A stretch of DNA of 25,314 bases from a virus: IMG/VR virus record IMGVR_UViG_3300046001_009447, positions 1 through 25,314 of that record. One strand, written 5' to 3'. A program made the translations under genes and the position numbers. Below, in pieces: positions 7,244 to 25,314 of the stretch; position 1 is the first letter of the stretch; each line of letters begins with the position of its first letter. The notes below the pieces were generated by a model that worked only from the letters and a program-made list of their open reading frames with translations, made no database searches and had not been told where the DNA came from.

Positions 7244-7269
7244 AAAGGCGTCATTTTTTTGACGCCTTT
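7244..7269 (-). terminator. Hairpin at the chaperone stop codon, possible weak terminator
   Basis: AAAGGCGTCA and TGACGCCTTT form a perfect 10-bp stem around a six-base loop of A (minus strand). The stop codon of the frameshift extension (7253-7251) lies within the stem. The sequence after the stem is TAATATTTATAA, which is AT-rich but not a clean U tract. It may therefore be an attenuator or an mRNA-stabilising hairpin rather than a full terminator. Confidence 0.5.
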
Positions 7270-7514
7270 GTAACATATGATGGAACATTTACTTTTTTAT
7301 CAGTTCCCGCTGATTTCATCGCAGCAATTGATTGTTCTACTGTATTAGTATTGCTGTTAGTTTCCTCATAAAATTCTTTAATTCGTTTAAAAGTAAAGTT
7401 TCTTAACCAAATAGGCATGTTATAAACTGTATTCCAGTCATAACCTCCTTTACCAAAAAATACTATTTCATGGATTTGGTCGAATAAACTTACTCTATAC
7501 TCAGGCGTCAGGCC
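7251..7514 (-). CDS. Frameshift-expressed C-terminal extension of the tail assembly chaperone
   Basis: These 87 codons are in the +1 (equivalently -2) frame relative to the gene at 8244-7501 and follow its T7 run directly. The translation begins GLTPEYRVSLFDQIHEIVFF, then contains GYDWNTVYNMPIWLRNFTF and a hydrophilic Asn/Thr/Lys-rich tail, ending VTKASKK. The frame has an upstream stop at about 7544, and the first ATG falls about 32 residues into the conserved part, so there is no normal start for the whole segment. The position between tail tube and tape measure is where lambda G/GT-type fusions are made by frameshifting. Shifting at the T7 run would give a fusion of about 330 residues. A homopolymer sequencing error would give the same picture and cannot be excluded here. 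Confidence 0.7.
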   Translation of the reverse strand, partial: GLTPEYRVSLFDQIHEIVFFGKGGYDWNTVYNMPIWLRNFTFKRIKEFYEETNSNTNTVEQSIAAMKSAGTDKKVNVPSYVTKASKK

Positions 7515-8286: not shown

Positions 8287-8320
8287 AAAAAAAGAAGCTC
8301 GCGAAAAATCGCGAGCTCTT
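8287..8320 (-). terminator. Intrinsic terminator after the tail tube gene
   Basis: On the minus strand AGCTCGCGA and TCGCGAGCT form a perfect 9-bp GC-rich stem around a TTTT loop. It is followed by TCTTTTTTTCTC, a good U tract. It starts about 20 bases after the tail tube stop codon, so it probably ends or attenuates the sheath/tube transcript before the chaperone and tape measure genes. Confidence 0.85.
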
Positions 8321-8867: not shown

Positions 8868-10601
8868 TTACGCTGGGAAAGTTGCTCCAGTAGGTAAGAT
8901 GTTGAAATCCAAGTAAATGAATTCAGCAGTCTTAGTTGGTTGTAGATAAATCTGACCTACTAACTGGTTTCTATCAATTACGTCTGGAGTGTTGTTTGAA
9001 CTGTCCATTACTACTTTAAACGCGTACAAACCTTGACGTTGTTGTACTGATTCTAAGTATGGGTTAACTTGACTTAAGAAGCTATTTCTTGTAGAGATAG
9101 TATTTTGTTCGAATACTAAGTTTTGAGCTACTTGAGAAATGTAAGACTTAAGAGCAATTAATAATCTACGAACGTTAACACGATCAAGTGCTGATGCAGT
9201 TGTTTGAAGTGTTTTCTGACCGTATACTACAGTACCAATACCAGGGAATGTAGCGATTGGGTTAACTTTGTTTAAGTATAAAGTATCGCGGTTAGCTTGA
9301 GATAATTTCTTTTCAGCTCTTACTACGCTACCTAATCCACCTCTGTTAATACCAGCAGGTGCGAACCATGGCTCACTTACTGAATCGTTATATGCATAAA
9401 CACCACCAATCATAGTTGAAGCTGGTACCCATACTAATTGAGCTGAATCTGGATCGATTGTTTGAACCCAAGGCCAGTAAGCAGCAGCATATGAACTATT
9501 TTTAGCGTTTGCAGCAGATGTTGTAGCTGAAATACTTGAGCTATAAGGTACTAAATCATTTACGTAAATTGCATCACCTCTATTTTGAGTATTAGAGATA
9601 ATTGTATTTACACCTGAAGCACCTAAAGGACCTTCTGAAGCAAATAAACCAGGAGTTAATAATACGTTGTATCTGTAATCATCAGCATTTGCCATCAAGT
9701 TAATCATGTTAGTGTAACTTGCTGTGTTCAAACCTTGAATGTTATTTACACCTGAAACAATGCTGTTATAGTATTTAGCACCTCCACCAACGAATAAAGC
9801 ACCAGTAGCAGCACCGAATGATCCGGAAGCATTTACAGGGATTGAAGATGTGTATTGCGCTTTTGCTATACCAGTATTATCAAAATAGAATGGGGTTGGA
9901 GTTAATACTGAAGAAACGTAAACGTATCTTGAAGCATTAGAATAAGTACCAACTACTTCTACTTGGTTATCTACTGAGTTATATTGTTTATATTGGTCAC
10001 CAATTACTTTAGATACGTAATTAGGAGCTGTTGGGTCCATTGATAAATTAGTCCAACTTTCTAATACAATAGGAGTATTAGCGTTATCATTACCCTGTCT
10101 AACTAATAAACTAAATGTACCTGATGCTGTATCAGAATTTGTAATTTGCCATCTAATATTATCAATAGAGCCAGAAATTAATGAACCACTTACGTCCATG
10201 CTACCCGTATTGTTCATGATAGCACCTTGTGAAATAGTTTTAAATACTAAAGCTTCTACAGATGCACTTGCATAAATAGGAGTACCTGAACCTGTAGCTG
10301 TTGTTGCGCTTGTGAATGAACCTGTTACTACTCTTGATACCAATAATGTTTGACCACCATTTGCAAAGTAATTGTAAGCTGCAATAGAGGTAAAATAAGT
10401 ATAAACTTGGCTAGCACTTAAGAAAGTAGTACCAAATTTATTTTGATAATCGCTGTATGAAGTAACGATTGTAGGAACTTCAACCGGGCCTTTAACTGTT
10501 GGACCAATAAGTGAGGCCCCTACAGTAACTGGCTGCTGGGTAATAAATGACTGGTCGTTTTCAAGCGCTAAGACACCAGGAGATATTAATGTTTCTGCCA
10601 T
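8868..10601 (-). CDS. Contractile tail sheath protein (T4 gp18-like)
   Basis: This 577-residue protein begins MAETLISPGVLALENDQSFI, the usual sheath N-terminus, followed by GASLIGPTVKGPVEVPTIVT, and contains an internal Ser/Thr/Gly-rich variable insertion (about 95-300). The C-terminal half includes NRGGLGSVVRAEKKLSQANR, a VVYGQKTLQTTASALDRVNV segment and LLIALKSYISQVAQNLVFEQ. These are the conserved helices that lock sheath subunits together in phage tails and related contractile systems. It ends with the short strand YLDFNILPTGATFPA. The gene sits immediately upstream of the tube gene, the normal order. It marks the phage as a myovirus type. The ATG at 10601 is followed directly by the conserved N-terminus. 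A variant of the shared motif lies 24 bases upstream. Confidence 0.93.
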   Translation of the reverse strand: MAETLISPGVLALENDQSFITQQPVTVGASLIGPTVKGPVEVPTIVTSYSDYQNKFGTTFLSASQVYTYFTSIAAYNYFANGGQTLLVSRVVTGSFTSATTATGSGTPIYASASVEALVFKTISQGAIMNNTGSMDVSGSLISGSIDNIRWQITNSDTASGTFSLLVRQGNDNANTPIVLESWTNLSMDPTAPNYVSKVIGDQYKQYNSVDNQVEVVGTYSNASRYVYVSSVLTPTPFYFDNTGIAKAQYTSSIPVNASGSFGAATGALFVGGGAKYYNSIVSGVNNIQGLNTASYTNMINLMANADDYRYNVLLTPGLFASEGPLGASGVNTIISNTQNRGDAIYVNDLVPYSSSISATTSAANAKNSSYAAAYWPWVQTIDPDSAQLVWVPASTMIGGVYAYNDSVSEPWFAPAGINRGGLGSVVRAEKKLSQANRDTLYLNKVNPIATFPGIGTVVYGQKTLQTTASALDRVNVRRLLIALKSYISQVAQNLVFEQNTISTRNSFLSQVNPYLESVQQRQGLYAFKVVMDSSNNTPDVIDRNQLVGQIYLQPTKTAEFIYLDFNILPTGATFPA

Positions 10602-10654: not shown

Positions 10655-10903
10655 TTACCTTGGGACTATTTCTCCCGTGGATAAATTTATGTTCGCATCA
10701 CCATATTTTTGTTGTAACAAAGCACCAATTTCTAATTCGGCCTTTTTAATTTGTGATAACTCTTCGATTAGTTGTTCTTTTTGAAGTTCAAGATCTTGTA
10801 TATTAATTTCAATCACTCCAAACTTTTCGATCAAATCTCCTCGTTTATTATTTAATTCTTGTAACTTAGATAACTCTTCTGGTGCTAGAACTTTATTTTC
10901 CAT
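10655..10903 (-). CDS. Small coiled-coil protein, copy B
   Basis: This 82-residue protein is almost entirely predicted coiled coil (about residues 5-62, heptads of Leu/Ile with Glu/Lys), followed by a short tail KYGDANINLSTGEIVPR. It is clearly paralogous to the 92-residue protein at 15311-15033: both share the pattern EFG/KFG, then a run of Leu/Glu heptads, E-E.EIG.LL..KYG...INL/IEN/TGE.(I/F)(V/I)P. The two copies flank the glycosyltransferase genes. It begins two bases after the stop of the heptosyltransferase-like gene, so it is in the same operon, and it precedes the sheath gene. Similar small coiled-coil proteins near T4-like tail genes have, to my knowledge, no assigned function. A structural or assembly role is likely but unproven. 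Confidence 0.75.
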   Translation of the reverse strand: MENKVLAPEELSKLQELNNKRGDLIEKFGVIEINIQDLELQKEQLIEELSQIKKAELEIGALLQQKYGDANINLSTGEIVPR

Positions 10904-10904
10904 A

Positions 10905-12098
10905 TTAATAAATATTAAGTATTCTATTAAGAGAATTAATTACTTGAGAGGATTCTATTGTTTTTGTGCATTCAAAATGTCGCGGAGTATCTTTATAATC
11001 TGGGCACCATTCCCAATCTCCTGGATCTAACCATTTGCGGTTAAAACATCCTTTACATGTTTTAGGATCTTCAGGGTAAACACGTTCGCATTCTTGAAAT
11101 TCAGTGTATGGGTAACTAAATCCTGAAATCATAATTGTTGGTGTGTTTAAAGACCAAGATAACCAACTTAATCCACTACCTACTCCTATAAATGCTTTTG
11201 CATCACGGATATCGATCATTCTATCTTGTAATGGTAAATCTCCGGTTTTATTAATTACTCCAGTTAAAGTACCTCCTAATTTAGAATCATGCCATTCATC
11301 ACCTAAAGGTTCTTGTGTAATCATTACAACTTTATAACCTTTATCATTCAAATAATCGATTACTGTTTGCCAACCACCTTTGTGATTCCAATACTTAGCG
11401 TGAGCCGAAGCATGTGGGGCTATTACAACATAATCACCTTCAATATCTGTTTTAGATTTTGGTGAATTTATAATAGGTTTAACTTCAGAATATTTTAACC
11501 CTAAAATTTCGCTTGCTGTTTGTTGTAAAGGATATTTTTTAAAATCAATTGGAATTTTATCAAACACAACTTTTTTACCATCGTAAAACCATCCAATACT
11601 ATACATCGCATAAATGTTATCTACTTGAAATCCAGGTTTTACAAATTCAATATTAGGATAATTTCCTTCGAACCATTCATTGTGGAATGTTGAGCAAATT
11701 ACCTCACACATAAATGTTTTTCTGAATTCTTCAATGTAAGGGAACCATGCTAAAGTATCACCCATCGCACCAGAATCAATGTGTATATAAACGCGTTTTC
11801 CTTTTGGATCCCAATTATGTTCAAATACTAAATCGCCGTTACTATAAACTTCTACACGCCAATTAACGCAGTATTTAATGTTAGTACGGGTCCACATATT
11901 ATTATTAATCGTACTTTCGTGCATTACACGATTTGTTTTACGATTAATAAATTTTACATTATATTCTCCTTCTAAAGGACCTAAAACTTCTAAAAAGGCA
12001 CCATTAACAAAATTAACATTAAAAGTATTTTGTGGTTTTTTACTTTCAATATTTAATATTTTTGTATTTGAATATTCTTTAATTAAAATATCTTTCAT
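10905..12098 (-). CDS. TibC/Aah-like autotransporter heptosyltransferase (O-glycosyltransferase)
   Basis: This 397-residue protein closely follows the bacterial autotransporter heptosyltransferase (BAHT) pattern. An N-terminal beta domain (about 24-95) contains NNNMWTRTNIKYCVNWRVEV. A GT-B core follows, with a GAMGDTLAW loop (110-118) carrying a conserved Asp, then a second Rossmann part with VVIAPHASAHAKYWNHKGGW (about 224-243) and FIGVGSGLSWLSW (303-315). A C-terminal Cys cluster (C348, C351, C365, C377) matches the four-Cys metal finger of TibC. Characterised members transfer heptose from ADP-heptose to serines of repetitive autotransporter passengers and assemble as dodecamers. Here no autotransporter is nearby; the plausible acceptor is the Ser/Thr-rich collagen-like protein upstream. 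The start overlaps the preceding glycosyltransferase gene by 20 bases. The family call is strong; donor and acceptor are inferred. Confidence 0.85.
   Translation of the reverse strand: MKDILIKEYSNTKILNIESKKPQNTFNVNFVNGAFLEVLGPLEGEYNVKFINRKTNRVMHESTINNNMWTRTNIKYCVNWRVEVYSNGDLVFEHNWDPKGKRVYIHIDSGAMGDTLAWFPYIEEFRKTFMCEVICSTFHNEWFEGNYPNIEFVKPGFQVDNIYAMYSIGWFYDGKKVVFDKIPIDFKKYPLQQTASEILGLKYSEVKPIINSPKSKTDIEGDYVVIAPHASAHAKYWNHKGGWQTVIDYLNDKGYKVVMITQEPLGDEWHDSKLGGTLTGVINKTGDLPLQDRMIDIRDAKAFIGVGSGLSWLSWSLNTPTIMISGFSYPYTEFQECERVYPEDPKTCKGCFNRKWLDPGDWEWCPDYKDTPRHFECTKTIESSQVINSLNRILNIY
10907..10916 (-). promoter_or_regulatory. Variant of the start-proximal motif (AATATTTATT)
   Basis: This variant overlaps the last codons of the heptosyltransferase-like gene and ends three bases before the ATG of the 82-residue coiled-coil gene. 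The placement is closer than for other copies, so chance occurrence in AT-rich DNA is more likely here. Confidence 0.3.
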
Positions 12099-13026
12099 GT
12101 AATATTATTAATTCTTTAGAACGATTTAACCAAGATAATTCATTTGCTGTCTGTAATGCTCGTTGACGGTAATGACCATATTCATTAATTATTGTATCTA
12201 ACCCACGCAACATTTCATTAAAATCTCTTGGTGCTCTCCATAACCCGTGGAATGTAGTATCTGTTTCTATCCAACCCAAAATAGGTAAACCACAAGCGGC
12301 AGCTTCTAACAAAGTTAAATTAGGGTGCCCAGCTTCTAATTCTGAGGGATGTAAAAATATAGTATATGAGGTATAAATTTGTCTTAGAGTTTCATTCGAA
12401 GGTTCATATATAATTGACAATTTTGGATAACCATATACCCATGAATTTTCTTCAAACCAATTTTCATTATTTTTAGGACCAACAATTGTAATAGGTAAAT
12501 TACGGGCCATTGCTATTTTAACACCTAATTCAAATCCTTTTCTATCATATGAACCGTATCCACCTAAACCATTATTTGCTAACATTAATAAATTATGTGC
12601 TAATGGAGGTGTTTCGTTAGGATAAAATGTATCTGTATTTACACCATGTGAAAAATAATGTACATTTGGTAAATTAAAATATTCTACAAGATAACGAGCC
12701 GGTACCAATGAAAATACCGAACGCTCCATTGCTTGTCTGTTTTGTTTGTAAACATCTGAGTTTTTACCATAATGATAAGCATGATGATCATGGTGTTGAA
12801 ATACATAAGGTATTCCTCGATCTGCTAATTCTAATGCTAGATTAGCAACGTGTACCATTACTAAATCATATTCACCTGATTGTACTTCACTAGCCCATTT
12901 AATATCTACCTCGTGACCTAATTGTTTAAGATTACAAGTAAATTCCCATACAATTTTTTCAACCGCACCCCATGCTGGAGGTGGGATTGGAATTCCGCAA
13001 CCTGGGTTTACTTGGCAAATTTTCAT
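12079..13026 (-). CDS. GT4-like (GT-B) glycosyltransferase
   Basis: This 315-residue protein begins MKICQVNPGCGIPIPPPAWG, the glycine-rich acceptor-side loop of GT4-type retaining transferases. It is followed by a DLVMVHV strand and a His-rich HHDHHAYHYG segment (about 79-87). The C-terminal nucleotide-sugar domain contains SHGVNTDTFYPN (126-137), DRKGFELGVKIA, and HPSELEAGHPNLTLLEA (226-242), then CGLPILG. The donor-binding glutamates here are E231 and E241, spaced by nine residues instead of the classical EX7E, a variant also seen in some GT4-like enzymes. There is no signal peptide, so it acts in the cytosol. It overlaps the upstream transferase by ATGA and the downstream one by 20 bases, so the three are translationally coupled and probably act in one glycan assembly. 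Sugar specificity cannot be read from sequence. Confidence 0.82.
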   Translation of the reverse strand: MKICQVNPGCGIPIPPPAWGAVEKIVWEFTCNLKQLGHEVDIKWASEVQSGEYDLVMVHVANLALELADRGIPYVFQHHDHHAYHYGKNSDVYKQNRQAMERSVFSLVPARYLVEYFNLPNVHYFSHGVNTDTFYPNETPPLAHNLLMLANNGLGGYGSYDRKGFELGVKIAMARNLPITIVGPKNNENWFEENSWVYGYPKLSIIYEPSNETLRQIYTSYTIFLHPSELEAGHPNLTLLEAAACGLPILGWIETDTTFHGLWRAPRDFNEMLRGLDTIINEYGHYRQRALQTANELSWLNRSKELIILHERYFN

Positions 13027-15014
13027 TTTAGTGTTAAGAATCCGTTTTTATTTAGTTTATTATCGTAATAATCCTTATTTACTATAATCTGTTTACGTTC
13101 AACAAGTTTTTGATTATGCCTATCGTGAGCATGATAATATATTTTATATGTTTTTTCAGGATTAAAGAATACCTGTCTAAACCAAGATACTTTACCTAAC
13201 ACTTTTATCGTTTCATCAAATAACATTTGATCATCCTCGTATACAGAAATTTCAATATCTCTATTATCAACTGAATTAGCTATACTTAAAAATACTGCAA
13301 ATTGATTATCATGATTTTTAACAGGTAATACTGAAAAATATTCTACTCTTGAATAATCTTTATGTTCAAAATTTTCACCTATTAATTTAGTAAAATTAGG
13401 TTCATCTTCCCAATATACCTGATCTTTGTTTTGGTTAAATGTATGGTATGTTAAATTTTCTAAACCATTAGATTCACTACCCCATTTTGTCATTAAACTA
13501 TCGTACTCTTCTGAAGTAGATATTGATGGGAAATGGTCAAGATAGAATTTAGGTGTTGATGCTAAAAAGTAAGTAATTACTGTATTACCTTCTTGTTCTT
13601 TTTTAAAACCAACATATGCTTTTTTCTGGTCTAGGATTTGAGATATATCATCTAAAAATTTAGGGTTAGATAGATAATAATCATAATTTAAAAAGTATAA
13701 TTTTTTAATACCTAAATCTTGAGCTAATGCAGCAGCATTATAATAATTTGTATAAACTGCTGGTCCATGATAAATGTCATTATCTTCTCCATTTAACAAT
13801 AAATCTACTCTCCAATTACCAAAATCAAACCATGTGTATTGATAGTAAGTATGTTTTGTTAAAAGATTATTTTTATCATAAACATAATAATCAGCAAGTT
13901 CTTGTAACTTTTCCGAAACTGGGATGTGTGATGTTAATATAACCTTTCTACCAGATGATTGAATAGATTTGATACATTCCTCTGTAGTTTTAGAAATTGA
14001 TTCTAACATTGGGTATGTTGAAATTACAACTGCTTCTTCTTCAATCTTAGGTTTATTTACATAATGTAAAGTAGATTCAATTAAACTTAAATTATAAGAA
14101 AAATCTGTAAAATCTAAGTAATTTACATTATAATCATCCCAATAATTAAGGTAAACTGGAAGATTATATATTAAAACTGGTATTTGGTATGAAACTGCCT
14201 CTCTAATTACTAAAGGCATTGTTTCTTTATCATTGTTTGTACCACGAGACGTAAATAAAAACAAATCCATTGCCTGATAGAAAGCATCTACATCTGTACG
14301 TTCATTCCACCAGGTTAAATTATTGGGTTTGTTATTCATTAACGGTTCCCAATAATGTTTAAAATTATCTGCTTGATTACCTACACAATGGAATTCATAT
14401 TGGGACAATGCTTTAGCATATTCAAAAAATTCAGCCTGATTTTTACGTGGGGTAAATAGTCCAATATGTAAAATATGTTTTTTACTTGGGTCTAATCCTA
14501 ATTTCTTTAATGCTTCTGTTCTATCAGGGCGTTCAACATATTCGATAGGGTAGTATACAACTACTTTAGGAATATCTATGTCTTTGTATTGTTGAACCTG
14601 CCATTCAGAGACAAACATGAACTTATCGGGAAAGAATTTCTTTTGAGTTGTATCGTAAGATGAATCGTGAGATGTTTCTACGATTTTATACTTTCTTTCC
14701 TTTGTATAAAGTTTTTTAGCAACCTCAAAGTCCATAAAGAATTCAGGAATTTCTTCTAAATGAACAATATCGGGTTGAACTTTATTTATAATATCGATAA
14801 GTTCGTGTTTATTTTCTCCTAAAGTAAAAAACTTGTCGGGGTCGACAAGCTTTACAATTTTATTACGAGTAACTACTAATACACCTCCTGTACAATCAAC
14901 CCATTCAACCAAATAAATTTCATAACTATCTTTTAATAGTTCAATTTTTTTAGTTAAATACTGAGGTAATCCCCCAGTTGATAAATGAGGCGCTACATAT
15001 AGTAGTTTCTCCAT
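13023..15014 (-). CDS. Two-domain glycosyltransferase (GT4 domain plus GT-A-like domain)
   Basis: The N-terminal half of this 663-residue protein (about 1-320) is a GT4-type GT-B transferase: a STGGLPQYL loop (12-20), HIGLFTPRKNQ (183-193), FTSRGT, and ETMPLVIREA (264-273), a classical EX7E pair E264/E272. The second half (about 328-500) reads like a separate GT-A-type domain: AVVISTYPM, VILTSHIPVSEKLQELADYY, a YHGPAVYTNYYNAAALAQDL helix region and FLNYDYYLS (441-449), which may hold a DxD-like metal site (NYDYY). The last 110 residues form a beta-rich domain of unknown role. The fusion suggests two successive sugar additions by one protein. It opens the three-gene transferase operon, follows copy A of the coiled-coil pair, and has AAAGG before its ATG. 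The GT4 part is confident; the second transferase is an inference. Confidence 0.8.
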   Translation of the reverse strand: MEKLLYVAPHLSTGGLPQYLTKKIELLKDSYEIYLVEWVDCTGGVLVVTRNKIVKLVDPDKFFTLGENKHELIDIINKVQPDIVHLEEIPEFFMDFEVAKKLYTKERKYKIVETSHDSSYDTTQKKFFPDKFMFVSEWQVQQYKDIDIPKVVVYYPIEYVERPDRTEALKKLGLDPSKKHILHIGLFTPRKNQAEFFEYAKALSQYEFHCVGNQADNFKHYWEPLMNNKPNNLTWWNERTDVDAFYQAMDLFLFTSRGTNNDKETMPLVIREAVSYQIPVLIYNLPVYLNYWDDYNVNYLDFTDFSYNLSLIESTLHYVNKPKIEEEAVVISTYPMLESISKTTEECIKSIQSSGRKVILTSHIPVSEKLQELADYYVYDKNNLLTKHTYYQYTWFDFGNWRVDLLLNGEDNDIYHGPAVYTNYYNAAALAQDLGIKKLYFLNYDYYLSNPKFLDDISQILDQKKAYVGFKKEQEGNTVITYFLASTPKFYLDHFPSISTSEEYDSLMTKWGSESNGLENLTYHTFNQNKDQVYWEDEPNFTKLIGENFEHKDYSRVEYFSVLPVKNHDNQFAVFLSIANSVDNRDIEISVYEDDQMLFDETIKVLGKVSWFRQVFFNPEKTYKIYYHAHDRHNQKLVERKQIIVNKDYYDNKLNKNGFLTLK

Positions 15015-15032
15015 AACCTTTGTTAAGTAAAA

Positions 15033-15311
15033 TTAGAATGAAGCTTTTTCTGTACCTTCAGTCTCGGCGGGAATAAATTCGCCGTTTTCAATGTTGATAG
15101 TACCAACACCGTACTTGTCAGAAAGGGTTTTACCTATTTCACTTTCTTCTTCTTTTAAATCATTGAAGAACTTAACAAGCTCAGTTTCTCTAGCTTCAAG
15201 TTGCAATTTAGCAATTCTAAGATTACCAAATTCAGCTACGATAGCATTGTTTTTCTGTTGGATTTCTTTAAGAGCGTCGATCTCTTTTTTGGTTAATTTT
15301 TTAATAGCCAT
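15033..15311 (-). CDS. Small coiled-coil protein, copy A
   Basis: This 92-residue protein is predicted coiled coil over about residues 4-65 (ALKEIQQKNNAIVAEFGNLR, then Leu/Glu heptads). It is followed by SDKYGVGTINIENGEFIPAE and a short acidic tail. It aligns end to end with the 82-residue protein at 10903-10655, so the pair arose by duplication. It lies between the collagen-like gene and the first glycosyltransferase, 18 bases ahead of the latter. Possible roles are trimerisation or assembly help for a fibre, or a minor structural part; none is established. The start is the ATG preceding the first conserved helix, after a leader with a variant of the shared AT-rich motif. Confidence 0.75.
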   Translation of the reverse strand: MAIKKLTKKEIDALKEIQQKNNAIVAEFGNLRIAKLQLEARETELVKFFNDLKEEESEIGKTLSDKYGVGTINIENGEFIPAETEGTEKASF

Positions 15312-15337
15312 AAATTTATTTTAATAACAGTTTGTGT

Positions 15338-15350
15338 CAATAAATATATA
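15338..15350 (-). promoter_or_regulatory. Variant of the start-proximal motif (ATATTTATT)
   Basis: The minus strand reads TATATATTTATTG about 28 bases before the ATG of coiled-coil copy A, in the 62-base gap after the collagen-like gene. It is less similar to the AATATTTATAA consensus than the exact copies. Confidence 0.35.
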
Positions 15351-15373
15351 AAAAATATTTTAAATATCCAAGT

Positions 15374-18300
15374 TTAGAATATATAACCTGGAACAGCATA
15401 TCTGTTTCCTGCATATATTATTTCAATCCATGAGTCTGGTTCTCCTAAAACGTTGTTTGGAGGAAGATTACTAAATACTAAATCTACCATGTTACCTCCT
15501 GCTGGTGGGTTAGCTGGGGGTTGAACTCCTGGAGTATCAATTTCTAAACGGTTAGTTTGTAAAATAGCTCCACTAACACCATCATTAACACGCATTAAAT
15601 CTGAAGCGTTGTTAATTGTAACAAAGTCTACAGACTGTATTGTAGTTGCAGATACTGTATAAACTAAATAGTTTGGTTGGTTGTTAAATGTACCACCACT
15701 AATACCTGAGGTACCATTAAATGATAAACCTGAAGTACCTGCTGAACCGCTTGTACCTGAGGTACCACTTGCTGCTGATAAACCTGCAGCACCTGCAATA
15801 CCTGAAGTACCTGAACTACCACTTGTACCTGCAGTACCTGATGTTCTTGAATTACCACTAGTTCCAGCTGTACCAGATGTATTTGAAGCACCTGAGGTAC
15901 CTGCTGTTCCTGAAGTATTTGAAGCACCTGAAGTACCTGCTGTACCGCTTGTACCGCTTGTACCTGAAGTACCAGAAGCACCTGAACCTCCATCTACACC
16001 CGAAGTACCAGATGAACCTGAAGTACCGGCTGTACCGCTTGTTGCACTAGCACCACTAGTACCATTTGTACCTGAAGTATTACTTGCTCCTGAGTTACCA
16101 GCTGTACCTGAAGTACCTGAATTACCTGATGTACCGTTTGAACCTGCTGTGCCTGAAGTACCACTTGTTTGGGATATACCACTAGCACCTGCTAGACCTG
16201 AAGTACCAGAACTTCCGCTTGTACCTGAAGTACCGCTTGTTGCACTAGCTCCACTTGTACCATTTGTTCCGGAAGCACCTGAAGTGCCATTTGTTCCGTT
16301 TGTACCTGAGGCACCACTAGTACCATTAGTTCCATTTGTTTGAGAAGCACCTGATGTTCCAGCTGTACCACTTGTTTGTGAAGCACCTGAAGCACCGGCT
16401 GTACCTGAAGAACCACTTGTTCCAGAAGTACCAGAAGTTGCACTAGCTGCAGAAAAACCAGCAGCACCTGCTATACCTGAAGTGCCTGATGATCCACTTG
16501 TTCCACTTGTACCATTTGTACCTGAAGTACCAGATGCACCTGAAGTGCCACTTGTACCTGAAGCTCCTGAAGTTCCGCTTGTACCTGAAGTTCCTGAAGC
16601 ACCGCTTGTACCATTTGTTCCGTTTGTACCTGAAGCACCGCTTGTACCATTTGTACCTGCCGTACTAGAAACACCTGAAGTTCCAGTTGTACCGTTTGTA
16701 CCTGAAGCACCTGAAGTGCCATTTGTACCTGAAGTTGCTGCAGCTCCTGAAGTTCCATTTGAACCTGAAGTGCCTGATGTTCCGCTTGTGTTTGATATAC
16801 CACTAGCACCTGCTAAACCTGAAGTACCTGATGAACCTGAAGTACCTGATGTTCCGCTTGTACCAGAAGATCCTGATGTACCTGAAGTTGCAGATACACC
16901 TGATGTTCCATTTGTTCCGTTTGTTCCAGAAGCACCTGAAGTTCCTGAAGAACCACTTACACCTGATGTACCTGAGGTACCATTTGTACCTGCGGTTCCG
17001 CTTGAACCACTTCTTCCTGAAGATCCTACTAAACCTGAAGTGCCTGAACTTCCACTTGAACCTGAAGTACCTGAAGTAGAGCTCTGACCGCTATTACCTG
17101 CGGCACCACTTGATGCATTACTACCACTTGAACCTGAAGTTCCGCTTGTACCTGAAGTACCTGATGCTCCTGAACCCCCATCTACACCTGAAGTACCTGA
17201 ACTGCCTGAAGTACCACTTGTTCCGTTTGTACCACTAGTACCTGCAGTTCCTGAAGTTCCACTGGTTCCACTAGAACCTGATGTTCCAGATGAACCTGAA
17301 GTGCCTGAACTTCCGGCTACTCCAGAGGTACCGTTTGTGCCTGAACTACCTGAAGTACCAGATGTACCATTTGTACCTGAAGAACCAGCTGCTCCTGAAG
17401 TACCGTTTGTACCAGAAGAACCACTTGTTCCACTTGTTCCGCTTGTACCAGAAGATCCAGCATTACCTGATAAACCTGAAGTACCAGTTGAACCAGAACT
17501 TCCGCTTGTGCCTGAAGTTGCTGATTGACCGCTATTACCAGATGCACCACTTGAACCTGAAGATCCAGATGTACCTGAAGTACCATTTGTACCTGAAGTA
17601 CCTGAAGTTCCACTTGTACCTGCTGAACCTGATGTACCTGCTGTACCTGAAGATCCAGATGTACCTGAAGTACCAGAAGTAGCACTTACTGCTGAAGCAC
17701 CTGCTGCACCGGCAATACCTGAAGTACCTGAACTACCTGAAGTACCACTTGTACCACTAGTTCCTGCTGTACCGTTTGTACCAGAAGATCCGCTTGTACC
17801 TGAGGTACCGTTTGTACCTGAAGTTCCTGCAGCACCGCTTGTGCCTGAAGAACCGCTTGTACCTGAAGTACCTGAAGTGCCATTTGTACCTGATGTACCA
17901 GATGTACCTGCTGTACCAGAAGATGCTGCTAAACCTGAAGTACCAGTTGAACCTGAGCTTCCTGAAGTACCTGAAGTTGAACTTTGACCGCTATTACCGG
18001 CAGCACCATTTGATCCTGAGGATCCTGAAGTACCGCTTGTACCTGAAGTTGCTGAGGCACCTGAAGTACCATTTGTACCTGTTGAACCAGATGAACCTGA
18101 ACTTCCACTAGTTCCACTTGAGTTAGATGTTCCAGATGAACCTGAAGTTCCTGAACTACCACTTGTTCCTGAAGAACCAGAAGTACCACTAGTTCCTGAT
18201 GAACCGCTTGAACCACTTGTACCAGAAGAACCAGAAGTACCGCTTGTACCACTTGTATTTGATATACCACTAGCACCTGCTAGACCTGAGGTACCAGAAC

Positions 18301-20272
18301 TACCTGAGCTTCCGCTTGTGCCTGAACTTCCAGAGGTACCTGCTGTACCTGAAGTTCCTGACGAACCTGATGTTCCTGAAGAATCTGATGTACCGCTAGT
18401 TCCTGCAGTACCATTTGTACCTGATGTACCTGAACTACCTGAAGTTCCTGCACTACCTGAAACACCAGATGTACCTGAAGTACCTGATGTACCAGAATTA
18501 CCGGCTAAACCTGAAGTACCTGAGCTTCCACTTGAACCAGATGTTCCAGAAGTAGCAGATTGACCACTATTACCAGAGTTACCATTTGTTCCGTTTGAAC
18601 CTGATGTACCTGAAGTGCCATTTGTGCCTGAAGATCCTGAAATACCAGATAAACCTGAAGTGCCTGTACTTCCACTTGAACCTGAAGTACCAGAAGTGGC
18701 GCTTTGACCACTATTACCGTTTGCACCAGATGAACCTGAACTACCTGATGAACCTGATGTTCCGCTTGTGCCTGAAGTTCCTGCTGAACCACTTGATCCA
18801 GATAAACCTGAAGTACCAGTTGAACCTGAACTTCCACTTGTACCTGAGGTTGCACTTTGTCCTGAGTTTCCGTTTACACCTGAAGAACCACTTGTTCCAG
18901 ATGTACCTGAACTACCTGATGAACCTGAAGTACCACTTGAACCTACTAAACCTGAAGTACCTGAACTGCCTGAGCTACCGCTTGTACCTGAGGTTGCACT
19001 TTGACCACTATTTCCTGATACACCAGAAGATCCGTTTGATCCTGAACTTCCTGAGCTACCTGATGAACCTGAAGTACCTGACGAACCTACTAAACCTGAA
19101 GTACCTGTACTTCCACTTGAACCTGAAGTACCAGAAGTTGCACTTTGTCCTGAATTTCCAGCAATACCTGATGATCCATTTGAACCTGAGCTACCAGAAG
19201 ATCCTGAAGTGCCTGAAGTGCCTGACGAACCTACTAAACCTGAAGTACCTGATGAACCTGATGAACCTGAAGTACCTGAAGTTGCACTTTGTCCTGAATT
19301 TCCAGCAATACCTGATGATCCATTCGAACCACTAGATCCTGATGAACCTGAAGTACCACTTGAACCTGATGAACCAGTTAAACCTGAGGTACCAGATGAA
19401 CCTGAGCTACCGCTTGTGCCTGAAGTTGCTGATTGACCGCTGTTACCAGAAACACCATTTGAACCACTACTACCACTAGAACCAGATGAACCTGAACTAC
19501 CAGAAGATGCCGCTAAACCTGAAGTACCTGTACTACCAGAAGAACCTGATGTTCCTGAGGTAGCACTTTGACCACTATTTCCTGCTATACCAGAAGATCC
19601 ATTTGAACCTGAACTACCTGAAGAGCCAGATGTACCAGATGAACCAGACGATGAGGTTAAACCACTTGTACCAGAAGAACCTGATGTTCCACTTGTACCT
19701 GAAGTTGCAGATTGACCACTATTACCACCAGCACCCGCTGAACCAGATGAACCTGAAGATCCACTTGTACCTGCTGTACCTGAAGAACCAGCACTTGCTG
19801 AGCTACCAGAAGTACCGCTTGTACCTCCACTTGTACCTGAAGAACCTTCTATACCAGAACTACCTGAAGAACCAGATGATCCAGAAGATCCACTTGTGCC
19901 AGAAGTACCAGATGAGCTAGAAGTACCTGAGGTACCTGCTGTTGATCCTGAAGTACCTGAAGTACCATTTACACCTGAAGTACCATTTGTACCTGATTGT
20001 CCACTTGAACCTGTTATACCTGATGTACCAGAAGAACCTGAAGTACCGCTAGTACCTGATGTACCAGATGTACCTGTTGTACCACTTCCTCCGCCTCCTC
20101 CTTGAACTAACGATACAACACCCTCATCATCAATTGTTAAGACATATCCCTCCCATCCTTGTGTTACGATAGGTAAGTTATATTTGTTAAAGCCAAGTGA
20201 TCTATCAAAGAAACCCCTACCTTGGTTTGGGTTGTCTAATCGATTATTACCACTGTACCTGTTTTCAGCCAT
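15374..20272 (-). CDS. Collagen-like Gly-Thr-Ser repeat protein, probable virion fibre
   Basis: The protein has 1632 residues. Residues 1-60 are a unique head (MAENRYSGNNRLDNPNQGRG, ending LVQGGGGG). About 61-1529 are nearly unbroken Gly-X-Y triplets dominated by GTS, GSS, GTN, GTA and GSN. About 1530-1632 form a unique beta-rich C-terminal domain ending NRYAVPGYIF. The repeat has essentially no proline and almost no charged residues, unlike typical bacterial and phage collagens. Collagen-like segments occur in many phage fibres. If it were fully triple-helical, about 1465 residues at 0.29 nm would reach roughly 420 nm. There is no signal peptide. The position between tail completion and sheath genes implies a virion part such as whiskers, neck fibres or decoration. 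The next genes include glycosyltransferases, so O-glycosylation of Thr/Ser is plausible. The role is inferred; the repeat is certain. Confidence 0.85.
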   Translation of the reverse strand: MAENRYSGNNRLDNPNQGRGFFDRSLGFNKYNLPIVTQGWEGYVLTIDDEGVVSLVQGGGGGSGTTGTSGTSGTSGTSGSSGTSGITGSSGQSGTNGTSGVNGTSGTSGSTAGTSGTSSSSGTSGTSGSSGSSGSSGSSGIEGSSGTSGGTSGTSGSSASAGSSGTAGTSGSSGSSGSAGAGGNSGQSATSGTSGTSGSSGTSGLTSSSGSSGTSGSSGSSGSNGSSGIAGNSGQSATSGTSGSSGSTGTSGLAASSGSSGSSGSSGSSGSNGVSGNSGQSATSGTSGSSGSSGTSGLTGSSGSSGTSGSSGSSGSNGSSGIAGNSGQSATSGTSGSSGSSGTSGLVGSSGTSGTSGSSGSSGSNGSSGIAGNSGQSATSGTSGSSGSTGTSGLVGSSGTSGSSGSSGSSGSNGSSGVSGNSGQSATSGTSGSSGSSGTSGLVGSSGTSGSSGSSGTSGTSGSSGVNGNSGQSATSGTSGSSGSTGTSGLSGSSGSAGTSGTSGTSGSSGSSGSSGANGNSGQSATSGTSGSSGSTGTSGLSGISGSSGTNGTSGTSGSNGTNGNSGNSGQSATSGTSGSSGSSGTSGLAGNSGTSGTSGTSGVSGSAGTSGSSGTSGTNGTAGTSGTSDSSGTSGSSGTSGTAGTSGSSGTSGSSGSSGTSGLAGASGISNTSGTSGTSGSSGTSGSSGSSGTSGTSGSSGTSGSSGTSGSSGTSNSSGTSGSSGSSGSTGTNGTSGASATSGTSGTSGSSGSNGAAGNSGQSSTSGTSGSSGSTGTSGLAASSGTAGTSGTSGTNGTSGTSGTSGSSGTSGAAGTSGTNGTSGTSGSSGTNGTAGTSGTSGTSGSSGTSGIAGAAGASAVSATSGTSGTSGSSGTAGTSGSAGTSGTSGTSGTNGTSGTSGSSGSSGASGNSGQSATSGTSGSSGSTGTSGLSGNAGSSGTSGTSGTSGSSGTNGTSGAAGSSGTNGTSGTSGSSGTNGTSGVAGSSGTSGSSGTSGSSGTSGTSGTAGTSGTNGTSGTSGSSGTSGVDGGSGASGTSGTSGTSGSSGSNASSGAAGNSGQSSTSGTSGSSGSSGTSGLVGSSGRSGSSGTAGTNGTSGTSGVSGSSGTSGASGTNGTNGTSGVSATSGTSGSSGTSGTSGTSGSSGTSGLAGASGISNTSGTSGTSGSNGTSGAAATSGTNGTSGASGTNGTTGTSGVSSTAGTNGTSGASGTNGTNGTSGASGTSGTSGTSGASGTSGTSGASGTSGTNGTSGTSGSSGTSGIAGAAGFSAASATSGTSGTSGSSGTAGASGASQTSGTAGTSGASQTNGTNGTSGASGTNGTNGTSGASGTNGTSGASATSGTSGTSGSSGTSGLAGASGISQTSGTSGTAGSNGTSGNSGTSGTAGNSGASNTSGTNGTSGASATSGTAGTSGSSGTSGVDGGSGASGTSGTSGTSGTAGTSGASNTSGTAGTSGASNTSGTAGTSGNSRTSGTAGTSGSSGTSGIAGAAGLSAASGTSGTSGSAGTSGLSFNGTSGISGGTFNNQPNYLVYTVSATTIQSVDFVTINNASDLMRVNDGVSGAILQTNRLEIDTPGVQPPANPPAGGNMVDLVFSNLPPNNVLGEPDSWIEIIYAGNRYAVPGYIF
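15700..20092 (-). repeat. Tandem Gly-X-Y coding repeat, about 4.4 kb
   Basis: About 490 nine-base triplet units encode Gly-Thr-Ser-like triplets. The synonymous codons are mixed: glycine is often GGT, but Thr appears as ACT or ACA and Ser as TCA, AGC, AGT or TCT in neighbouring units. The amino acid repeat is therefore far more regular than the DNA. The absence of stops in other frames creates many false open frames on both strands. Confidence 0.95.
18430..19726 (-). repeat. 48-residue superrepeat within the collagen-like gene
   Basis: From residue 183 to about 615 the triplets are organised in nine tandem copies of a 45- to 51-residue (mostly 48, 16-triplet) block. Each block opens with GNSGQSATSGTS, where Ala replaces the expected Gly, and carries GTSGL plus a small residue about 18 residues later. 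Three further isolated GNSGQS(A/S)TS blocks occur downstream. Confidence 0.85.
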
Positions 20273-20321: not shown

Positions 20322-21164
20322 TTAAGGCAGCTTATTTACAGTAGTTTCTGATATCAATACCTGAGTTGTGTTTGAGAATTTCGATATAGCTGTTACATCT
20401 TTCTGTAATGTGTCTGGAATGATGTAGCCGTTAATTCTTAAATCGAATGTACTTCTAATAATACGTTCGTCGTTGTTAGTTAGTTCGGTTTGAAAACCAA
20501 AAGAATCGATCATTGTTTTAAATTGGTATCTTTCAGGATTACCCCAGTATGCATCAGAAGCATATTCAATTGCCTCAACTATTTTGTTTAGTTGCTCAAC
20601 ATAGTACGTAAATGCCGCGCATGTATACGTTATAGTAACATAATCAGGCACAACTGTGGCGTAGTATTGAATTTCAGGAGTTCGGTTATTTAATACGTTA
20701 AATTGACTATATTCGTTTCGTGCGTCATAGCTTTTTTTAGAAACACTATAGTTGTTTGGGTTGTTAGCGTCTAACTTGTTTGTAATAGTTCTGTTTTTTG
20801 TAATATCTGTTCTTTTGAACATGATAAGAGGTGCCATAATTTTACCTTTTATATCTCGGTAAAATCCATCTCTTTGATATGATTTCCATTTTTCAGGAGA
20901 ACCATAAATTACGGGAACAGGTAAACGTTCACCATTTTGCAATACTGAAGGTTTAATTACTTCATTAAAATAATAAAAAACGGCTTCATCAATGTCTTGA
21001 ATACCAACGCTAAATGGTTTTACATCATCTCCTTTCCACGATACCTGTTGTGAGCGATTTGGCTTTAATCTATCGTTTGGATTTCCCCATTCAGGAGCAG
21101 TTGCCTTATGTTGAGATAAGCTTATCTCTTTTTGGGTTTTTGGAGTCGGTTTTCTAGTAGCCAT
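20322..21164 (-). CDS. Tail completion / sheath stabiliser protein (T4 gp15-like)
   Basis: This 280-residue protein has a basic, disordered N-terminus (MATRKPTPKTQKEISLSQHK), then VGIQDIDEAVFYYFNEVIKP, RLPVPVIYGSPEKWKSYQRD and IKGKIMAPLIMFKRTDI. A strand-rich core with YYATVVPDYVTITYTCAAFT follows and ends in LRINGYIIPD. This matches the layout of T4 gp15-type tail terminator proteins, which cap the tail and join it to the neck. It is the last of three genes linked by TAATG overlaps (21164 is shared with the gp14-like gene). In T4 the same order 13-14-15 precedes the sheath; here the collagen-like and glycosyltransferase block separates it from the sheath gene. The assignment is by motif pattern and synteny and is fairly confident. 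Confidence 0.72.
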   Translation of the reverse strand: MATRKPTPKTQKEISLSQHKATAPEWGNPNDRLKPNRSQQVSWKGDDVKPFSVGIQDIDEAVFYYFNEVIKPSVLQNGERLPVPVIYGSPEKWKSYQRDGFYRDIKGKIMAPLIMFKRTDITKNRTITNKLDANNPNNYSVSKKSYDARNEYSQFNVLNNRTPEIQYYATVVPDYVTITYTCAAFTYYVEQLNKIVEAIEYASDAYWGNPERYQFKTMIDSFGFQTELTNNDERIIRSTFDLRINGYIIPDTLQKDVTAISKFSNTTQVLISETTVNKLP

Positions 21165-23672: not shown

Positions 23673-25314
23673 TTATAATGCTCTATATGCTGTTTTTACT
23701 TCCCAAGTTCCGCTTGAGATGTTTGCTGTTAATACTAAACTACCGGCTACAATAGATGTTGAGAAATCTACGGCCGCTGTAGTACCGATATCGGCTGTAC
23801 TTGTGTCTGTGTATCGTGAGGTTGAATTGTTGTGTACTGCCATTACTGTTCCGGCTCTCATGTTTACTGAACCCGAGGCAACATAGTAATCAAAGAATGC
23901 TGCTTTAAAGGATGCTGTTGGAACAGAAGCAATGTTTGTGTTTGTGGTAAGTGAACCTGAGAAGGTTGTTGTTTCAATAGTTGTTGTACCTTGATTCTCT
24001 ATTGCAATTGCGCCTGAGACTTGGAGTTTGTATGATGGTGAGGTTGTTCCAATACCTACGTTACCTGTTGCTCTTTTAAATGTTACTGCATCATTACTGA
24101 TTCCATAAGAATAAAAAATTAAATCTCCATTCCCAGCACCGTTTGTTAATTGCCAATCATTAGCGTTATCTCTATTAAATAATATACCACCATCTTGACC
24201 GCTTTTCTTGTTTAAATATAAGTAATAATTAGCTGCTGCATTATTAGCATTAAGCTGAATGTTACCACCTTCAACACTTAATTTCTGGTTTGGGGTAGTA
24301 GTACCAATACCTACGTTACCACCTGTTAAAACAGTAAAATAAGAAGAAGGCCAATCACTAAAGGTTGATGGGGTATTTGATGCTCTGTATCCTATCATAA
24401 AAGCATCAGCAGTACCCCATTGTGAATTTCCTTGACCTATTTGCCAACTTGAAGTTGTTTGAGCTCCATAAAACAAAATAGAAGGTCTATCGTTAGTACC
24501 AGCATTATCTGTTTTAAATTCAGCTACAATTCCATAACTGTGATTTCCATTAACGTTAATAAAACTAGCTGCTGGGTAATAAACTCCTAATCCGTTAACT
24601 GAGTTTTGGAATACAGATAAACCTATATCATCAACCGCAGCACCTGATACGTGTAGTTTAGCTAGTGGAGTAGTAGTACCAATACCTACTTTACCTCCAT
24701 AAGGTTGAAGTTGGATGTTACCGTCATTTCCTCCGTTATTAGTTTGAATTTGGTATTCACCGGCTCCTGCTTGACGGAAGTACATTAAATCAGATGTACT
24801 AGCACCCATAGTAAGCATGACTGAAGATCCTAATATTGATAGTTTAGCTGTACCTCCAGTTGTGAATGAACTAGTAATACCAATACCTACGTTACCCTCT
24901 ATAATAGCTCCGTTTGAAGGAGGAGTAGTAGCTTGATAATTACTACCGATAGAAGCACCTCCTCGTACTAATAATCCAAAAGCACCAGTGTTAACAGGTA
25001 CTGAACCTCTATCGTATCCGATCCATGTATTACCCTTACCGTCAACTCTTAATGGACCTACTGTTCCATCATAAGTAATATTAATTAAACTAGCATTAGT
25101 TGCATCAGTATCGGTATAGTCAAATCGACCTAGCTGCATACTAAATAAACCTGTAGTATCTACTGTGCCAGGACCATTGTTTGTTTGATCACTTATTAAA
25201 ATAGCAGGTTGGCTAGTCCATGAACCTGGAGCTGCTCCAGTTCCATGTCTTAGTACTGCGATAGCATAGTCTGTATTATCAGATGTTGCTTGTTTACCAA
25301 CTGTTAAAGTATAG
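23673..25314 (-). CDS. Tail-fibre-like protein, 5' end cut by window edge
   Basis: The frame is open from the right edge (no stop through position 25313) to TAA at 23673-23675, giving about 546 visible residues. An internal ATG at 25139 is not the true start, because the upstream 58 codons are also protein-like. It carries at least four degenerate GNVGIGTTxPxxKLxVSG modules separated by beta-rich spacers, including NGGNDGNIQLQPYGGKVGIG. A C-terminal domain contains FFDYYVASGSVNMRAGTVMA, STADIGTTAAVDFSTSIV, and SGTWEVKTAYRAL, a terminal domain recurring in phage structural proteins. There are no membrane segments. It is probably the upstream partner of the 185-residue fibre protein in a host-recognition structure. 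Its true N-terminus, and therefore the virion attachment site, lies outside the window. Confidence 0.75.
   Translation of the reverse strand, partial: YTLTVGKQATSDNTDYAIAVLRHGTGAAPGSWTSQPAILISDQTNNGPGTVDTTGLFSMQLGRFDYTDTDATNASLINITYDGTVGPLRVDGKGNTWIGYDRGSVPVNTGAFGLLVRGGASIGSNYQATTPPSNGAIIEGNVGIGITSSFTTGGTAKLSILGSSVMLTMGASTSDLMYFRQAGAGEYQIQTNNGGNDGNIQLQPYGGKVGIGTTTPLAKLHVSGAAVDDIGLSVFQNSVNGLGVYYPAASFINVNGNHSYGIVAEFKTDNAGTNDRPSILFYGAQTTSSWQIGQGNSQWGTADAFMIGYRASNTPSTFSDWPSSYFTVLTGGNVGIGTTTPNQKLSVEGGNIQLNANNAAANYYLYLNKKSGQDGGILFNRDNANDWQLTNGAGNGDLIFYSYGISNDAVTFKRATGNVGIGTTSPSYKLQVSGAIAIENQGTTTIETTTFSGSLTTNTNIASVPTASFKAAFFDYYVASGSVNMRAGTVMAVHNNSTSRYTDTSTADIGTTAAVDFSTSIVAGSLVLTANISSGTWEVKTAYRAL

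Follow-up and report, generated by a model that had tools for sequence, protein, structure and literature searches.

What does a phage build with a long collagen-like gene and three glycosyltransferase genes that stand one behind the other among the genes for its tail? This question is raised by a 25,314-base fragment of an uncultured T4-like phage (virus record IMGVR_UViG_3300046001_009447), hereafter called the window, in which all genes of interest lie on the minus strand. The initial annotation of this fragment described a 1632-residue repeat protein, a coiled-coil gene, three transferases (here genes a, b, and c) and a second coiled-coil gene between a gp15-like and a sheath gene, and all of these were found at the coordinates, on the strand and in the order claimed. 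It further proposed that they form a self-contained module that builds a sugar-coated virion fibre. From the sequence comparisons presented here, we consider it likely that the block is a gain-or-loss cassette making a glycosylated collagen-like virion fibre, with gene c heptosylating the fibre and genes a and b extending the glycan. The phage would probably sugar-coat its own fibre, because the repeat and the transferases tend to be found together, in its relatives as well as in unrelated phages. Related loci are designated below by L numbers.

The Collagen-like Repeat Protein

The repeat gene (15374..20272, minus strand), identified by its open reading frame (ORF), its composition and Pfam PF01391, encodes 1632 residues with 447 Gly-X-Y triplets, and the Pfam collagen model matches a 201-residue piece at 1e-22 (80.1 bits against a cut-off of 27.2), as a long Gly-X-Y array would. 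A collagen-type repeat protein of the claimed length is thereby confirmed. The order Gly-Thr/Ser-X that had been given for the repeat is correct in placing Thr (214) or Ser (121) at X, but the Y position is not free and is mostly Ser (341), so that the repeat is better written Gly-Thr/Ser-Ser. The whole protein consists almost entirely of Gly, Ser and Thr, with 522 Ser and 266 Thr (788 together), 12 Pro and a single Lys, and this near absence of Pro argues, at the level of composition, against an ordinary triple helix. The N-terminal ~57 residues are conserved, as is a segment of ~46 residues at the end of the repeat, both of which recur in relatives and neither the N- nor the C-terminal piece of the protein gave a match in Pfam. 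The C-terminal tip differs in most relatives, and most matches of the C-terminal piece end at or near the ~46-residue segment, as would be expected if the tip of the fibre can be exchanged. In relatives, two fibres encoded at the same site terminate in a Peptidase_S74 chaperone domain (L188, 1.9e-17; L532, 2.1e-7), which supports a role as virion fibre for these proteins and, by analogy, suggests one for the window protein.

Gene c, a TibC/Aah-type Enzyme

Gene c (10905..12098, minus strand; 397 residues; TibC/Aah-type, BAHT) scores 310.7 bits against a cut-off of 200 with NCBIfam TIGR04414, the Aah/TibC O-heptosyltransferase equivalog, aligns to TibC chains over residues 22-393 (2e-56) and matches Pfam PF01075 (1.6e-11). 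TibC has a catalytic Asp110, the sugar-site residues Thr226, Lys230, Arg286, and Trp305, and an iron finger of four cysteines (PMC4358343). In the alignment to TibC, read by eye, Asp110, Lys230, Arg286, and Trp305 correspond to D114, K235, R293, and W312 of gene c, Thr226 is replaced by S231, and the finger cysteines align with C348, C351, C365, and C377, for which iron binding is predicted. These positions were also followed through 93 phage rows, collected by likeness to gene c and including the window and one copy from its own cluster: the Asp, Lys, Trp, and all four Cys are kept in 93/93, either Ser or Thr occupies the Thr site in 93/93, and the Arg is kept in 68/93. In the region of the N-terminal beta-barrel domain, the TibC alignment begins at residue 22, and Pfam TibC_1st scores 14.6 bits against a cut-off of 27. 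Family score, TibC alignment and the retained catalytic and iron-finger residues thus uphold the earlier description of the third transferase as TibC/Aah-like. No autotransporter model matched among the window proteins and protein pieces scanned with Pfam, a set without small ORFs such as 7251-7418. On these comparisons gene c is classed as a member of the Aah/TibC enzyme family and not of the BAHT-autotransporter two-gene system.

Genes a and b and Their Fusions

Gene a (13023..15014, minus strand; 663 residues), characterized by Pfam, AlphaFold2 models and structure matches, and gene b (12079..13026, minus strand; 315 residues), characterized by Pfam, precede gene c in coding order, and the frames overlap by 4 nt (a/b) and 20 nt (b/c). 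PF00534 matches both proteins above its cut-off of 26.4 bits (gene a, 8.9e-13, 48.6 bits; gene b, 2.1e-6, 27.8 bits), so that two GT4-type, translationally coupled transferases are present as had been claimed; the assignment of gene b comes from Pfam alone, the GT-B fold having been inspected for gene a. Gene a consists of a GT4-type GT-B domain (~1-321), a GT-A-like domain (~325-550) and a C-terminal beta-sandwich (~556-650), modelled by AlphaFold2 with a mean predicted local distance difference test (pLDDT) score of 85.5 for the whole protein and 94.5 for the second half. The VIA structure list, which covered residues 1-321 of the model, contains matches of the GT-B domain with Z up to 19.0. 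With the C-terminal half, a structure search returned many GT-A-type folds at low TM-scores, and because of these low scores no family is given to this half.

GT4-type and TibC-like domains are fused in one protein in the 735-kb phage LR756501 and in several other records, which suggests that these domains work together; a relative of gene b is among the domains fused in this way in other phages. In LR756501 the transferase cluster lies at 580-586 kb (L003), two giant ORFs with Gly-X-Y repeats (3487 and 2830 residues) lie ~160 kb off (L006, 400-420 kb), and the opposite strand beside the transferase cluster has a smaller ORF, 87 residues of which are repeat. In L004 (PP395634, 2-3052 and 4750-8430) a gene annotated as "methyltransferase FkbM" has a C-terminal TibC/Aah-type domain (317.4 bits against 200); a Ser/Thr-rich Gly-X-Y frame stands just upstream of it, starting at the first bases of the record, and the annotated genes there are mostly on the other strand.

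Repeat and Transferases Tend to Occur Together

In a set of 50 long records, which are hand-picked long contigs with and without transferases and not a random sample, the pattern (G-[S/T]-[S/T])x4 is present in 33/34 records with a match to gene a or gene c and in 1/16 without. Once near-identical contigs are merged (n=40), the repeat is found in 23/24 records with transferases vs 1/16 without (Fisher 6e-9, without correction for kinship). The two exceptions are L117 and L249, where the available stretch stops within a Gly-X-Y gene.

The same association is seen at the tail locus itself. Among 42 complete intervals from gp15 to sheath, 37 hold neither repeat nor transferases, four hold both and one (L243) holds transferases only; the labels come from likeness to proteins of the window, and unlike transferases in the 37 would escape notice. 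L137 (86% identity), which has the shortest path to the window on the sheath tree, carries neither. On this tree of 102 rows, 11 changes of the transferase label are required, and of seven independent pairs, 3 to 6 show the repeat changing in the same direction and 0 in the opposite one. Starting from the transferases, 83 clusters were collected, of which 43 have at least 4 kb upstream; 35 of these 43 have a Gly-X-Y ORF in the locus, Ser/Thr-rich in 30 cases and otherwise in five (L135, L112, L083, L167, L178). The remaining 40 clusters are too short upstream to count, and six of them still show a Gly-X-Y ORF. In a second arrangement (L105, L109, L110, L114, L117, L134) no tail gene is visible near the transferases, and a divergent Gly-X-Y gene lies beside them.

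Records were also chosen for the repeat alone. Among the matches listed, 80 repeat loci gave 46 records of at least 30 kb with (G-[S/T]-[S/T])x6, and 30 records of at least 30 kb with a G-P-X pattern served as controls; duplicates and one already known contig were dropped from the sets, and single G-P-X matches may be due to chance in GC-rich DNA. A TibC-like gene is present in 20/46 repeat-selected vs 0/30 G-P-X records among the matches listed (Fisher 7e-6), and GT4 models exceed their cut-off in 22/46 vs 5/30, again among the matches listed. Around the TibC-like gene of the 20 positives among the matches listed, there is a Ser/Thr-rich collagen ORF in 12, a Pro-rich one only in one (L532) and none in seven. 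This nearness (12/20, among the matches listed) exceeds chance only on the assumption of about one repeat gene in each record (expected 6.1, P 0.0025).

A Possible Sugar Donor and the Proposed Pathway

Some relatives carry candidate donor genes beside the transferases. At the same tail site in L243, relatives of genes a and c are followed by three further genes. The first encodes an HldE-like adenylyltransferase with TIGR02199 as its best model (115 bits against a cut-off of 181.5), the second a protein that weakly matches a phosphatase model (TIGR01689, 0.0002), and the third an HldE-like kinase whose best model is TIGR02198 (112.7 bits against a cut-off of 345). In L372, which was found via the repeat alone, a GT4-TibC fusion (TIGR04414, 296.7 bits) is followed by an adenylyltransferase, a kinase and then a convergent Ser/Thr-rich collagen gene. 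L315 and L355 have one small gene between an HldE-like kinase, recognized by TIGR02198 (115.7 bits) in L315 and by likeness to the L243 kinase in L355, and a Ser/Thr-rich collagen gene, with no TibC-like gene in the available stretch. The HldE-like neighbours in L243 and L372 lend indirect support to the proposal that Ser receives heptose from an ADP-heptose donor. Heptose is a tentative assignment, because all scanned donor genes score below curated cut-offs and the L243 adenylyltransferase is closer to cytidylyltransferases in a search of solved structures. Phage-borne ADP-heptose genes as a general rule were rejected, with TIGR02199 above its cut-off in 0/38 records. Since this is so, and since no HldE-like donor gene was found among the window proteins scanned with Pfam, the donor for the window phage would probably have to come from the host, on the assumption that the host makes ADP-heptose.

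In the pathway that we propose, gene c would act in the cytoplasm of the host and move heptose, or a similar sugar supplied as an ADP-sugar, to Ser or Thr residues of the Gly-[Thr/Ser]-Ser repeat; gene b, of GT4 type, and gene a, with its GT4 and GT-A-like domains, would next lengthen the sugar. The dense sugar coat may keep the almost proline-free repeat extended and soluble, and may shield or tune a fibre with a variable C-terminal tip.

Weighing the Proposed Glycosylated Fibre against Other Explanations

A number of observations speak against a glycosylated collagen-like fibre. The known TibC acceptors are beta-helical autotransporters, and no collagen-like chains are among them. In L167 and L178 a TibC-like fusion (214.6 bits in L178) lies beside a collagen with 17% Pro and 4-5% Ser plus Thr, and in L532 a TibC-like gene lies beside a collagen with 21% Pro and 6% Ser plus Thr (66 residues scored); at these three loci either the enzyme has a different acceptor, or the acceptor sites are few. 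Eight of the 43 countable clusters have no Gly-X-Y ORF in view (L005, L136, L115, L207, L189, L184, L243, L193), although the repeat pattern is present in the whole record of L115. None is in view beside the transferases of L013 either, nor in 21 kb of L540 (PAAV01000055.1), where a relative of gene a stands beside a GT4-TibC fusion. Among the matches listed, 26/46 repeat-selected records, mostly fragments, have no visible TibC-like gene, so that the repeat is often encountered without the enzyme in view, and with two repeat genes per record the nearness of TibC-like gene and repeat is not above chance (expected 9.5, P 0.15, among the matches listed). The tree-based test is borderline (median p 0.06), and TIGR02199 gave nothing beyond weaker matches in two of its 38 records. 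The co-occurrence itself mostly stands, both in the merged records and in the complete intervals, qualified by the sub-lineage with Pro-rich collagen and by the loci with no Gly-X-Y ORF in view. The refuting case named in the initial annotation, transferases carried regularly by relatives in which a Ser/Thr-rich repeat protein is lacking, was thus for the most part not encountered. The module as it was first conceived has to yield on these same two points and on its second coiled-coil gene, and is supported overall by co-occurrence and enzyme family.

It has to be considered whether the transferases act on something else. TibC-like genes persist beside the Pro-rich, Ser/Thr-poor collagen of L167, L178, and L532, and the window has a further upstream gene (23673-25139) with weak tail-fibre PHROG matches; both would suit transferases that modify a different virion protein, such as another fibre, the sheath or the baseplate, with the collagen-like protein as a co-inherited neighbour in a host-recognition island. 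We regard this as unlikely, since the Ser/Thr-rich repeat itself tracks the transferases, the repeat-selected records included. The acceptor could also be outside the virion, if the transferases change the surface polysaccharide of the host and so block other phages, as proposed for pelagimyophages, and GT4 enzymes are often polysaccharide enzymes. The glycosyltransferases of T4-like pelagic phages have been read in this way (PMC7029224), but the family of gene c modifies proteins, and the cassette is located within the tail genes and is missing jointly with the repeat gene in 37/42 intervals, which makes a host-surface role quite improbable here. That the transferases glucosylate phage DNA in the manner of T4 AGT is hardly credible: the GT-B domain of gene a does align to the DNA alpha-glucosyltransferase 1y8z (Z 17.6), but other GT4-type enzymes are equal or better in the same structure list, and location and partner genes do not fit.

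There remains the fibre without sugar, a collagen or polyglycine-II-type structure whose link with transferases would be hitch-hiking in variable islands. The repeat-selected records with no visible TibC-like gene agree with it, and so does EPclA, an E. coli prophage collagen whose recombinant form is not glycosylated (PMC3368898). The same source, however, ascribes the stability of EPclA partly to proline and charged residues, in both of which the window repeat is poor, and repeat and transferases are jointly present and jointly absent at one locus; we therefore give an unglycosylated fibre very little credence. A defence role was likewise set aside; no PADLOC match was obtained with the five proteins submitted.

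Proline-rich Sister Loci and Possible Further Decoration Genes

The Pro-rich sister loci (L178:1379-4354, L167:1538-4516, L532:13200-16210), whose fibre lies at the same site as in the window and has very little Lys, also encode a protein of 786-795 residues. In L178, which the domain scan covered, this protein is encoded next to the fibre and combines a GT4-like region, a GT25-like region (procollagen galactosyltransferase, 1.5e-12) and a region like the lysyl hydroxylase LH3 (1.2e-20); it is followed by a gene for a 2-oxoglutarate-Fe(II) (2OG-Fe(II)) oxygenase (PF13640, 7.9e-15). L167 and L532 resemble L178 in the size and order of their ORFs. L188 has a related fusion and a proline-free Ser/Thr collagen, and its fibre directly adjoins the fusion. 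Three loci against one, a thin basis, point to collagen processing as the common theme. As a tentative extension, which we hold to be possible rather than likely, aquatic phages may have, at a single locus among the tail genes, a toolkit for collagen maturation whose parts are interchangeable, evolved as a counterpart of animal collagen processing, in which Ser/Thr sugars would replace proline hydroxylation in proline-free fibres, and a lysyl-hydroxylase/galactosyltransferase-type fusion together with a prolyl-hydroxylase-like enzyme would serve proline-rich ones.

The 2OG-Fe(II) oxygenase (PF13640) is found in two more transferase islands (L022:1748-2989, L525:4034-4633). In L525 a Ser/Thr-rich collagen ORF is near the oxygenase; the L022 contig, which also has a DUF6445 gene, starts before any collagen comes into view. 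The transferase islands of relatives further include carbamoyltransferases, FkbM methyltransferases and a sulfotransferase (sites of these decoration genes: L105:14291-15847, L105:12754-13347, L035:9318-10004, L116:9179-9997, L525:15200-16783), which suggests additional decoration of the glycan.

Relation to Known Systems

The closest known enzymes are those of the BAHT family (TIGR04414), which gene c resembles in scoring above the cut-off, in keeping the catalytic, sugar-binding and iron-finger residues and in being adjoined by a repetitive, Ser-rich candidate partner. It differs in that this partner is a collagen-like phage protein and not an autotransporter, and in that two more transferases are coupled to it, or fused in relatives. 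The words "phage" and "collagen" are absent from the main text of PMC4358343.

Sugars on phage virion proteins, proposed here from genes alone, have a precedent in mycobacteriophages, where the transferases are reportedly encoded by the phage. The mycobacteriophage glycans are described on capsid and tail-tube C-termini (Freeman et al., 2023, as cited in PMC12619734); the proposal for the window differs in that it concerns a fibre of Ser/Thr repeats and an enzyme of the TibC type. BclA, a surface protein of Bacillus spores, differs from the window protein in this location, in its Gly-Pro-Thr repeats and in being modified by other enzymes. What it shares is that a collagen-like protein of bacteria is glycosylated (PMC8968730). 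Mimivirus encodes collagen-like proteins, and its L230 protein hydroxylates Lys and adds glucose (PMC9614988). The window cassette is unlike this system in having no hydroxylase and one Lys in the repeat protein, and an LH3/GT25-like fusion is present in sister phages of the L178 type. Collagen repeats occur as well in EPclA and EPclB, phage side tail fibres which are proline-rich and charged, unlike the window repeat, and of which EPclA was unglycosylated in recombinant form (PMC3368898). Phage virion glycosylation, viral collagen glycosylation and phage collagen fibres are thus each already known, and a limited open-access search found no literature that joins the three.

The glycosylated fibre, if correct, would place on phage fibres the action of an enzyme family so far associated with autotransporters of bacteria, and would provide an acceptor and donor hypothesis for part of the unexplained glycosyltransferases of aquatic phages. 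It also offers a test case for whether dense O-glycosylation can stabilize a collagen-like chain almost without proline, and the Pro-rich sister loci with lysyl-hydroxylase and GT25-like regions would bring collagen modification to viruses of bacteria.

Coiled-coil Genes, Flanking Genes, and Host

Two small coiled-coil genes flank the transferase block, one encoding 92 residues (15033..15311, minus strand) and the other 82 residues (10655..10903, minus strand), and they are paralogues (33% identity, 7e-14). A relative of the second also precedes the sheath gene in many relatives that have no module, so that it is a core tail gene and not, as had been supposed, a part of the module. Because the flanking coiled coils are paralogous and the downstream one is a core gene, the transferase block may have entered via duplication of the pre-sheath coiled-coil gene.

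In coding order, the region begins with fibre-like genes, a head-tail adaptor (PHROG 211, 3.5e-9), two neck-type genes and the repeat gene, and continues after the repeat with the 92-residue coiled coil, the three transferases, the 82-residue coiled coil, and sheath, tube, baseplate, and tape-measure-like genes. The tube and sheath identities are borne out by PHROG, with the sheath flank (8868..10601, minus strand) matching PHROG 23 at 3.8e-71 as expected from the initial annotation; the neck and tape-measure names come partly from synteny. The gp15-like flank (20322..21164, minus strand) fits by position and is named from synteny alone: it has no Pfam match, and its sole PHROG match is weak (0.0011) and of unknown function in PHROG.

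Among the phage records compared, the sheath is nearest to that of Flavobacterium phage immuto (52%) and to that of Microcystis phage Mel-JY01, a cultured phage with a TibC-type domain and with a Gly-X-Y frame where its record begins. Relatives of gene a are present in three contigs of metagenome-assembled genomes (MAGs), of Winogradskyella (L538), Flavobacteriales (L539) and Chloroflexi (L540), and L538 and L539 have a Ser/Thr-rich collagen gene plus the remaining transferases, L538 additionally having sheath and tube genes. A Bacteroidota host for the window phage is plausible, because gene a relatives sit in the Winogradskyella and Flavobacteriales MAG contigs.

In the window, no RNA element exceeds the Rfam gathering scores, and no internal promoter is claimed, because the 48 promoter-like sites match the 46.8 expected. 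Terminator-like sites number 7 against 6.0 expected, with no excess in the region as a whole; one of these hairpins (8295-8318, minus strand), located 3' of the tail tube gene with 10 pairs and a T-rich tail, is a possible end of the transcript.

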